A stretch of DNA of 33,945 nucleotides from Phyllobacterium phragmitis (lineage in GTDB: Bacteria > Pseudomonadota > Alphaproteobacteria > Rhizobiales > Rhizobiaceae): contig NZ_PVBR01000033.1 of the NCBI RefSeq assembly GCF_002980495.1, forward strand, positions 1 to 33,945, written 5' to 3'. Shown here piece by piece: positions 560-33,945 of the stretch (position 1 is its first letter; each line of letters opens with the position of its first letter). The notes beneath the pieces were generated by a model, which was not told the origin of the DNA, did no database searches, and worked only from the letters and a program-made list of their open reading frames with translations. The position numbers and the translations under genes were made by a program.

Positions 560-591
560 GTCGCCCCTCTCGCGGGGGCGTGGATCGAAAC
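560..591 (+). CRISPR. Solitary type I-C-like CRISPR repeat
   Basis: This 32-base unit begins GTCGCCCCTCTCGCGGGGGC and ends GTGGATCGAAAC. It has the internal GCCCC/GGGGC palindrome and GAAAC 3' end typical of type I-C repeats. It matches the repeat at 32005-32036 on the opposite strand at 30 of 32 bases. No second repeat follows within spacer distance on either side, and no cas gene is adjacent. It is therefore an orphan or terminal repeat, not an array. Confidence 0.8.
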
Positions 592-31114: not shown

Positions 31115-31897
31115 TCAGCGATTTGGCCTGATAGGGCCGAAGACGCCTTCAAACGCCCTGGCAAGTGCGAGATCGAGATCCTGCATCGTCAGCGGCAATC
31201 CGAGGTCGACAAGGCTGGTGACGCCGTGCTCGCTCACGCCGCAGGGCACGATGCCGCCGAAAGCGCCAAGCTCCGGTTCGACATTGATGGCGATGCCGTG
31301 AAAGCTCACCCAGCGGCGCAGCCTGATCCCGATGGCGGCGATCTTGTCTTCCGCGAGAGCGCCATCCGCAAGGCGCAGCTTTTCCGGCCGCGTCACCCAG
31401 ACACCGACACGATCCTCGCGCCGCTCGCCCCTGACGTTGAACGCGGCAAGTGTGCGGATGATCCATTCCTCGAGCGAGGTGACGAAGGCACGCACATCCT
31501 CGCGGCGGCGCTTGAGATCGAGCATGACATAGGCCACGCGCTGGCCTGGGCCGTGATAGGTATATTCGCCACCGCGCCCGGTCCGGAAGACCGGAAACCG
31601 GTCGGGCGTGAGCAGGTCGCTCGCTTTGGCGCTTGTGCCGGCCGTATAGAGCGGCGGGTGTTCGACGAGCCAGACGAGCTCCGGCGCGGCGCCGTCACGA
31701 ATCGCGGCAACCCGTGTCTCCATGAAAGCGAGTGCTGCGGGATAATCGGTCAGCCCATCTGCGATGAGCCATTCCACCGGCGGCGAGCCGTCTTCGGGAA
31801 GAAAGGTGGCGGGGAGGGCCGAACGCTCTCTGCGTTCACCTATCGCGGGGCTCTGCAGATCGTTTTGGGATGAAGCGGTGGAGTCGACTATGGTCAT
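31115..31897 (-). CDS. lipB: Octanoyltransferase (lipoate biosynthesis)
   Basis: LipB transfers octanoyl groups from acyl carrier protein to lipoyl domains of pyruvate dehydrogenase and related complexes. The 260 residues show [35 protein letters not shown] with the catalytic His environment, [22 protein letters not shown] with the family lysine, and [14 protein letters not shown] with the catalytic Cys. The ATG at 31897 is preferred to a TTG at 31927 that has no ribosome site. The first 62 bases overlap the aberrant 3' end of the cas3 remnant on the same strand. The stop codon abuts that of pccA on the other strand. Confidence 0.93.
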
Positions 31898-31949
31898 GAT
31901 TGTCCCATATGGACCCTTTGCCGCCAAACTTCCAGATGGAGCAAGTCAA

Positions 31950-31973
31950 GGAAAAGTGGGAACCGGTTTTTCC
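31950..31973. repeat. REP-like palindromic element upstream of lipB
   Basis: GGAAAAGTGGGAACC and GGTTTTTCC form a partial palindrome around AACCGGTT. This motif is one I recall as frequent in intergenic regions of Ochrobactrum and Brucella genomes. It lies between the lipB start and the terminal CRISPR repeat, marking the chromosomal side of the junction. Confidence 0.45.
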
Positions 31974-32004
31974 GTAGGCGTTCGGTGATAAGGGAGCATA
32001 GACG

Positions 32005-32092
32005 GTTTCGATCCACGCCCCTGCTAGAGGGGCGACCTGGATCGATCCAGTATCCACGATCGCTACGCAGTTTCGATCCACGCCCCCGCGCG
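32005..32092 (-). CRISPR. Relic CRISPR array: partial repeat, one spacer, one terminal repeat
   Basis: Read on the minus strand, a repeat end (32092-32070, about 23 bases ending GTGGATCGAAAC) is followed by a 33-base spacer (32069-32037) and a complete 32-base repeat (32036-32005). That last repeat has GCTAGAGGGG in place of the canonical stem centre, as terminal repeats often do. Repeat length, the GAAAC end and the 33-base spacer fit type I-C, and the orientation matches cas3. The missing 5' part of the first repeat is replaced by cas3 coding sequence. No leader remains, so new spacers could not be acquired here. The spacer contains the palindrome CTGGATCGATCCAG. Confidence 0.82.
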
Positions 32093-33837
32093 CAATCTGG
32101 TCAAGCCCGGCTTCCGCGCGCCAGACACGCGGGAAATCGACATCGACGCCCGCCTCGACCAGCGATGTCGCGATCAGGCGGCAGGGGCGCTTGTTCTTCA
32201 GCCTGTGGCGTACATCGGCCAGGATTTCGCGCCGATGCGTCGCATATTGGCGGGTCGTCAGGTGGGTCACTCCGTCAAGTTCGGCGGCTTTTGCGGCTTT
32301 GTAGAGGGCAAGCGCGTGCTTGCGGCTGTTGACGATCATGAGTCCTTGCCCATTGTCGCGGAGCGCTGTCACCAGATCGTCGTCGCTCATCTCGCCGGCG
32401 GATGCGATTTCGACGCGCTTCAGGGCGCGGGCCAGCGCCGGTGGATTGGGGGCCAGTTCCTGCTTCGGTCCAAGGACGAGTCCGCCCTCGAATTCCGGCG
32501 CGGCCAAGGCCGGCTGGGTGGCGGTGCACAAGACGATCGACGTGCCGTAATTGCGGGCGAGTTCGTCCAGCGCTGCCACGCAGGGACGAAGCAATGGCAA
32601 GGGGATGGTCTGCGCTTCGTCCAGAATGATGACGGTGCGCGCCAGATTGTGCAGCTTGCGGCAACGCGAGGGCCGATTGGCAAACAGGCTTTCGAAGAGT
32701 TGCACATTGGTGGTGACGATAATTGGCGCCGCCCAGTCCTCCATGGCGAGACGGAGCTTGTCCGCGCCTTCACGTTGTTTGAACGTTTCCTCCTCGATCG
32801 CCGAATGATGCTCCAGTATGAATTCGTCGCCCAGCACGTCCCGGAAAACGGCCACGGTCTGGTCAATCACCGATGTGAACGGGATGGCATAGATGATCCG
32901 GTCCAGCCCATGCTTCTTCGCATGGTCGAGCGCGAAGCCGAGGGAAGCCAGCGTCTTGCCGCCACCGGTCGGAACGGTGAGCGTGAAGAGGCCGGTCGCA
33001 TCGCTCGCCTTGGCGCGCACATGGTCAAGAATTTCGCCGCGCAGACGATTGACGGCTGTGCTGCTGGATCGTTTGCTGGCCATGTGCGCATCGAAACGGG
33101 CAATGAGCGGATCGATGACCGCACCGAGTGCTGGCCAGTCGCGGTCCTTCTTCTCTCTCTTGATCCCCTCGTAGAAAGCTTCCGTATCCCGGAAATCGGC
33201 ATCCACCAGGCATGAAAAGATCATGCGCCCAAGAAAACCGAGCTGAAACGCCGCTTTGTCCTTATCCCTGATCCAGTCGAAATCCGGCATAAGGCCGGTT
33301 GCATCCGGGGCGATTTCATTGCGCCATGCCGGATCGAGGGGCGGCAGTTGCTTGTTTCGCCGTTCCGCCAGCGATCCTTCGCCGATCCTGTCCGGCAAGC
33401 CCGCGTGATGCCCGGCGATCGCATAGGCGATCAGTTCCGCCATTGTGCGATCTGCAATCGTGCTCCCAAGGGCAAATGTTTCGATGGCGCCGGCGGTCGA
33501 GTGATCGACCTTTTCGGGCGCCCCAGTCAGCCTTGCCTGAAAGGCGGCTGTATATTTTCCAAGGTCATGCAAAAGCCCCGCAAGCCGCGCGGCCTTTTTC
33601 GCTCCGAACACGCCAGCGAACCGCGCCGCCAGTTCGGCAACATCATTCAGATGTCGATGCAACAGTTGCCAATCGGAGCACGATTCGTCCTCCGTCGAGT
33701 GCGCGAAGAACATGCCCGCTTCCCCCAATACCCCAATTCATCTTTGCTGGGGAACTGGGAAAGGTCAAGAGTGACAGGTGCCAGGGCAGGGCAATCGCTT
33801 GAAGAACAGCACTTCCAGCGGCGGAATTGTTATGATT

Positions 33838-33872
33838 CATAGGGAACCTCGATTTTATGGAGGTTTCCTATG
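33838..33872 (+). promoter_or_regulatory. Hairpin that includes the transposase start codon
   Basis: CATAGGGAACCTC and GAGGTTTCCTATG pair at 12 of 13 positions around a 9-base loop. The ATG of the transposase is the last three bases of the 3' arm. In mRNA this would bury the start codon, a known way insertion sequences limit transposase translation. The effect here is inferred. Confidence 0.5.
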
Positions 33873-33945
33873 TCCGGCAAAGCACTACTCGATCAGTTTG
33901 GCTCCCTTGAAGACCCGCGCCAGTCGTGGAAAGTGCTGTATCCTT
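33870..33945 (+). CDS. ISAs1-family transposase, N-terminal fragment
   Basis: Only 25 residues are in the window before it runs off the edge. They read MSGKALLDQFGSLEDPRQSW then KVLYP, which matches the N terminus of ISAs1-family (H-repeat-associated) transposases, where a D-P/Y-R-Q-x-W-K-V motif precedes the catalytic DDE domain. The gene points away from cas3 and begins 142 bases upstream of it. The insertion sequence probably separated cas3 from its original upstream flank. The left terminal inverted repeat of the element is not resolved. Confidence 0.72.
   Translation, partial: MSGKALLDQFGSLEDPRQSWKVLYP

Follow-up and report, generated by a model that had tools for sequence, protein, structure and literature searches.

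A cas3 fragment running into a CRISPR repeat in Phyllobacterium phragmitis, very probably the remnant of a type I-C locus removed by one deletion

CRISPR-Cas systems are frequently lost, and the physical route of the loss is seldom visible. According to the available portions of the papers cited here, degraded type I-E loci of Salmonella and Shigella retain only a cas3 pseudogene (PMC2886076), and defective type I-C variants, d1 to d4, occur in the Bacillus cereus group (PMC7242445). Under plasmid selection, S. epidermidis deletes its CRISPR-Cas locus at little or no cost, and losses of spacers were attributed there to repeat recombination (PMC3784566). Regarding chromosomal deletions driven by Cas proteins, short homologies of 1-9 nt have been considered (PMC3630108).

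Here, we describe a join that is readable to the base. The window, by which we mean the whole stretch of DNA analysed, is one entire contig of 33,945 nt from P. phragmitis (genome of 5.6 Mb in 139 contigs, 99% complete). As an earlier note on this DNA had read it, and as we verified on the sequence, cas3 runs into the end of a CRISPR repeat, a spacer and a terminal repeat, all on one strand (Table 1). We consider this, with a probability of about 0.88, to be what is left of a type I-C CRISPR-Cas locus after a single deletion.

Table 1. Features of the window with their coordinates and strands
Feature	Coordinates	Strand	Remark
cas3 5' part, type I-C, 541 codons	32091..33713	-	ends before QAAGR
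Motifs of HD nuclease and helicase retained as far as SLVEAGVD; QAAGR and C-terminal part gone	32091..33713	-	
Open frame of accidental fusion	31836..33713	-	cas3 followed by 84 aa encoded by repeat, spacer and flank
Deletion junction (very probable), overlap 1-2 nt	32089..32090	-	base comparison with 19 relatives
3' 20 nt of CRISPR repeat, GCGGGGGCGTGGATCGAAAC	32070..32089	-	
33-nt spacer, no protospacer found	32037..32069	-	
Complete 32-nt CRISPR repeat, taken as the array's distal end	32005..32036	-	
Flank between the last repeat and the point beside lipB where synteny within the genus stops	31937..32004	.	
Lone complete CRISPR repeat, same type, opposite orientation; possibly a second relic	560..591	+	

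The best PADLOC model for the protein was Cas3c (E 6.5e-183), which identifies it as a Cas3 of subtype I-C. On the minus strand the gene is undamaged through codon 541 (DQIA), and all of the remaining codons are without stop or frameshift. The motifs LLHDLGK, GHHAG, TGGGKT, DEAQ, TATQ and SLVEAGVD are kept. A complete Cas3, with HD domain, helicase including QAAGR and C-terminal part, was not found in the window. The earlier note had let the frame begin at 33728; the frame itself stands, and comparison with homologues makes the ATG at 33713 the more likely start, 33728 being a TTG upstream of it. Conservation was measured on an alignment of 15 intact relatives, from which L011 was dropped as incomplete and in which L012, L024 and L028 are absent. 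Of 148 positions invariant among these relatives the window keeps 144. In a leave-one-out control every intact relative retained 148 of 148-160 positions, and the level of the window lies within the range of the relatives. The loss of the I-C locus was probably recent. Beyond the junction the fused frame runs open for a further 84 aa, to 31836, and on that strand it overlaps the lipB frame at its 5' end; this fused open frame is a leftover.

In all 20 homologues that possess the region, cas3 reads on as QAAGR, and 19 of them were compared with the window base by base. This alignment across the junction, which had been proposed as a check, showed that the cas3 of the relatives departs precisely there: 19 of 19 agree with the window at 32090, and none of the 19 at 32089 or at 32088. 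Conservation had been claimed up to LDQIAR. It holds through DQIA, with the cas3 part ending at 32091/32090, but the final R belongs to the junction, where the relatives read Q. From 32090 onward the window has the sequence of its own lone repeat at 560-591. By hand comparison, the overlap between cas3 and repeat at the join is 1 nt with the repeat type of the window and 2 nt with that of G030, the genome with the closest intact locus. A proposed microhomology of GCGCG type fails because the homologues have CAG or CAA at the codon of the join in 20 of 20 cases.

Regarding the repeats, a 17-nt motif, GTTTCGATCCACGCCCC, occurs three times in the window with zero mismatches, at 32005, 32070 and 575-591 (minus strand); in a shuffled control that allowed up to 3 mismatches, the mean was 0.19 occurrences and the maximum 2. 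The repeat is of the kind found beside I-C operons (GTCGC...GTGGATYGAAAC) and is oriented like cas3. In 30 of 32 positions the last repeat (32036-32005) matches the lone one, with two changes, and both copies fold into the same 7-bp hairpin. Because of this identity and the common hairpin, the word degenerate, previously applied to the terminal repeat, is too strong; the repeat is complete. The lone repeat lies 31 kb from the main site, near a 3' fragment of a tRNA-Thr (697-742), and a full tRNA-Thr with that same 3' end is present on contig C14. As to a possible setting in a virus or provirus, the surroundings of this lone repeat are cut by the contig end, and the main site is fused to cas3.

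The spacer of 33 bases between the repeats was found as described (32069-32037). In 394 genomes of the family it matched, with up to 3 mismatches, itself alone, and neither the whole spacer nor two 19-mers from it had an exact match in viral contigs. Against phages and plasmids only weak partial matches appeared, with E values of 0.9 or more. In 12 sequence stretches the best match was 22 of 33 bases, in the array stretch of the congener G005, a value equalled by 1 of 200 shuffled spacers; this candidate was discounted, as the match ends within repeat sequence. Among the I-C cas loci, no convincing target of the spacer was found. The earlier note took this spacer for the oldest of the array, with which its position would fit.

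What an intact locus would have contained can be read from relatives. The order cas3-cas5-cas8c-cas7-cas4-cas1-cas2 followed by the array, given as typical for type I-C, is that annotated in Rhizobium sp. Q54, where the array lies beyond cas2 and where cas3 and cas8c are each annotated in two pieces. The locus of G030 contains cas3, cas5, cas8c, cas7, cas4 and cas1 in order and then an array of 42-43 repeat matches, of which the last repeat is a variant. From the equivalent point of its cas3 to its last but one repeat there are 9,058 nt, and the array ends about 9.1 kb away. In the genome of P. phragmitis, neither the I-C model of the adaptation protein Cas1 nor the Cas8c model found a match. 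The Cas7 and Cas3 C-terminus of G030 had no match there either, the same queries having matched in 4 of 7 genomes searched, and no functional I-C effector with cas8c and cas7 was found in the genome. The gene cas5, for crRNA processing, is absent from the window and from the stretches of contig C13 that were examined. Since there is neither effector nor spacer acquisition, the remnant is dead as immunity.

Altogether, the absence of cas1, cas8c, cas7 and the end of Cas3 from the genome supports the proposed deletion, in which cas3 became joined to a near-distal repeat and the interval was lost. One end would have lain in cas3 just before QAAGR, and the other within a repeat close to the array's distal end. 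If the locus resembled that of G030, its closest intact relative, about 9 kb would have been removed, namely the rest of cas3, cas5-cas8c-cas7-cas4-cas1-cas2, and with them the leader and almost every spacer. The single event, the accompanying loss of cas5, cas4, cas2 and leader, and the cause are what we infer from this arrangement; a two-step history would produce the same join.

Comparison with an intact I-C locus at the same site, another proposed check, yielded none among five congeners, and the ancestral state is therefore deduced from loci elsewhere. A cas3 match was found in one of the five congeners, G005, on a contig other than that of lipB. In these five congeners lipB is followed by tRNA-Leu(GAG) and then by a patatin-like gene, the family of which was assigned from sequence reading. 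Their synteny with the window stops at 31935-31939 in three cases and at 31834-31839 in two. In P. phragmitis the tRNA-Leu lies on contig C13, followed by unrelated genes, with lipB on the contig of the window; this side of lipB is therefore particular to the genome. At the right edge of the contig, 33871-33945 (+) may be the start of a transposase frame, presumably resembling the ISAs1 type; its 25 aa had no match in Pfam or among plasmids.

Similar joins were then found in relatives. In a family sample of 199 genomes, 20 had a cas3 match: 16 cas3 frames were at least 752 aa long, that of G032 was split at contig ends, and three were cut short (the window, G007 and G190). In the case of G007, cas3 passes after IPFT into a half repeat and an array, with 24 repeat matches including the half repeat. 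In the case of G190, cas3 meets a half repeat at the same bases, with no further repeat in the 16-kb stretch. On a plasmid of Allorhizobium pseudoryzae, from a record titled complete sequence, cas3 meets the first of three repeats at its first base. In the window and in these three cases the cas3 frame is undamaged up to the join, and a search for cas genes other than cas2 found no others in the 16-kb stretches of G007, G190 and A. pseudoryzae. The genome G117 carries an intact cas3 (L016) plus decayed copies, one of which breaks, like the window, at DQI and goes on with a half repeat, some 33 nt of spacer and a variant repeat; the two DQI breaks lie within about 2 nt of each other. This decayed copy is L087, about 6345-6250 (-), on G117:C22.

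The gene joined to the repeat is not always cas3. In the congener G005 a cas4 is cut, with about 35 residues recognisable and a repeat 9 nt later (L036, about 8081-7969 (-), on G005:C6). This locus keeps cas3, cas5, cas8c and cas7, with no cas1 match in the stretch examined, and a separate long array is present on contig C1 of the same genome. Counter-examples also exist: in Methylosinus trichosporium cas3 ends shortly past IPFT and continues into other sequence, not into a repeat, and a second G117 fragment (L088) has stops and no repeat nearby. Taken together, 5 of the 7 truncated I-C cas3 copies whose broken side is visible end in a repeat; this count leaves aside G032 with its contig-end split and the unseen parts of G007, G190 and others, and the cas4 of G005 was counted apart. 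With four further cas3-to-repeat joins and one cas4-to-repeat join, the window is still a legible case of loss, but an unusual one to a lesser degree than the earlier note had held.

Surveys beyond the family sample covered plasmids, where 16 of 57 records covered less than 80% of Cas3 and 4 of those 16 were examined, and phages, which gave 4 records. Five viral contigs that matched a degenerate cas3-repeat pattern turned out not to be cas3 fusions, and two of them look like plain repeats. Single repeats of I-C type stand in G004 (L066, 2801 (-)) and G016 (L067, 2392 (+)), two genomes with no match to cas3, Cas7 or the Cas3 C-terminus; these are possibly last traces of lost systems.

Two positions of cas3 were thus hit twice, IPFT in G007 and G190 and DQI in the window and G117, and the members of these pairs are not closest relatives. 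G007 and G190 share 51% identity and are not sister lineages. A single clade of the window, G007, G190 and A. pseudoryzae was rejected (p-AU 3.6e-5), and a forced clade of G007 and G190 was weakly disfavoured (p-AU 0.04), the latter group having been named after seeing the data. The G117 fragment was left out of the tree because its N-terminus is missing. It is 80% identical to the intact L016 of G117 and 54% identical to L012, the nearest relative of the window, the window itself lying outside this comparison. The two IPFT loci, L074 (9014 (-)) and L030 (2344 (+)), come from two genera and have identical cas3-repeat junction bases, the 51% identity being that of their Cas3 N-termini.

To judge chance, the repeat share of the locus span was determined as 10-15% in four loci with long arrays, a range that excludes G005, itself deleted, and in which the array of L040 reaches the edge of its stretch. 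If endpoints were spread evenly, with repeat fractions of 0.10-0.15, 5 of 7 would have P 0.0002-0.0013, a value that is post hoc and assumes independence. Likewise post hoc and under assumed independence, if five cas3 positions are drawn at random, two disjoint pairs lie within 2 nt with a probability of about 1e-4.

These observations led us to a more general explanation, which we put forward tentatively and regard as nearly as apt to be right as wrong: the I-C loci of this family may repeatedly die by deletion from a cas gene, usually cas3, to a repeat, with preferred breaks in cas3. Repeats could be preferred endpoints because a hairpin-forming sequence is present in an array in many identical copies; the repeats studied here form hairpins of 7 bp with a loop of 5 nt. 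On the other side of the deletion certain positions of cas3 would be preferred, so that a fixed cas3 position would be one partner and the many-copy, hairpin-forming repeat the other. By hand comparison, the break point within the repeat is at base 1 in A. pseudoryzae, about base 12 in the window and about bases 14-15 in G007 and G190.

Homology between the two partners was considered in several forms. A 7-bp microhomology in A. pseudoryzae was rejected, as 20 of 20 relatives listed, like the window, encode K at that codon (AAG or AAA), leaving about 1 nt. Repeat loops of the TTCACG type match the cas3 codons at IPFT, and such loops were seen in two viral contigs, in one G005 repeat and, at the join in G117, in its half repeat. 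Among the 24 repeat matches of G007 none has this loop except the join itself, and an ancestral repeat of the TTCACG type is for this reason an assumption for G007 and G190. Likeness of cas3 to six repeat types was not outstanding at IPFT, where 9-88% of cas3 stretches score as high, nor at DQI, where 1-72% of stretches are as repeat-like and 4 of 18 loci stand at about 2% or less. Because the twice-hit positions are not generally more repeat-like, the idea of preferred endpoints is left without an explanation by homology.

Regarding other explanations of the window, a rearrangement deserves mention, in which an inversion or translocation, for example with the 560-591 repeat, brought a piece of cas3 next to a repeat, and what remained of the locus was lost separately. 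The inverted repeat of the same type 31 kb from the array remnant would fit such a history, as would the distribution over different contigs of lipB and tRNA-Leu, neighbours in the congeners, with unrelated genes after the tRNA-Leu. The sequences that follow the two complete repeats agree in 8 of their first 12 nt, which also favours it, yet over 60 nt only 24 agree. Moreover, the join is collinear, inside cas3 and inside a repeat, as expected of a plain deletion, other genomes show this architecture again, and the searches for Cas1, Cas8c, Cas7 and the Cas3 C-terminus found no other cas piece. We consider a rearrangement unlikely, and prefer the single deletion.

Clearly less probable still is a retained function, with the truncated Cas3, an HD nuclease, and the mini-array serving as an anti-cas or CreTA-like guide or as a source of crRNA for an incoming system. 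Undamaged frames up to the join, in the window as in G007, G190 and A. pseudoryzae, could point in this direction, and orphan I-F arrays of E. coli can act against cas genes, according to the available part of PMC8616872. Against it, a guide would meet neither Cas8c nor Cas7 in this genome, and hence no Cascade of the kind that a CreTA-type system would need; QAAGR is lost, the spacer matches no I-C cas locus convincingly, the copy in G117 is decayed, and the array part varies from 24 matches in G007 to 3 in A. pseudoryzae and one half repeat in G190. Least probable of all, and hardly credible, is that the assembly joined cas3 to a repeat. The assembly is a draft, and the contig begins in a multi-copy element, since positions 1-127 include 126-127 nt common to three other contig ends and form the end of such an element. 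These very ends, however, suggest an assembly k-mer near 127, far above the 32-nt repeat, and assembly error is therefore unlikely; the join also lies well inside the contig, and the similar one in A. pseudoryzae stands in a record titled complete sequence. The deletion from cas3 into the array thus stays the preferred reading.

On its own, the window is an ordinary dead system. Partial CRISPR-Cas deletions that leave a cas3 pseudogene are already published; it is the recurrent joins at shared cas3 positions that are worth following. Parallel joins, with two pairs at shared positions, lead to the testable claim that repeats and certain sites in cas3 are deletion endpoints. If this is true, a long array would by its nature put the entire locus at risk of loss, a point relevant to the coming and going of these systems, and the very part that stores immunity would be where the system gives way.

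In comparison with known systems, the window resembles the I-E loci of Salmonella and Shigella in that cas genes were deleted and a cas3 remnant marks the locus; unlike the window, those belong to the Ecoli (I-E) subtype, and a join of cas3 into a repeat is not among the features described in the available text (PMC2886076). Open-licence PMC papers, within their accessible portions, likewise yielded no cas3-repeat join. As in the B. cereus group, a I-C system was inactivated by internal deletion, variant d3 there cutting into a cas gene, whereas none of the variants described in the accessible part of that paper is reduced to the 5' part of cas3 and the end of the array (PMC7242445). Loss of the locus by deletion is shared with S. 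epidermidis; of the large deletions in 16 mutants there, 13 were assigned to IS elements or transposon, 2 to homologous regions and 1 to cassette excision, and none, unlike in the window, to joining of a cas gene with a repeat, as far as the available part of that paper goes (PMC3784566). Viruses and proviruses carry solitary repeat units and mini-arrays, according to the accessible part of PMC8616872; there, as in the window, a single spacer is flanked by one full and one truncated repeat, and the solitary repeats also resemble the lone repeat at 560-591; unlike the viral mini-arrays, the array piece of the window is physically continuous with cas3.
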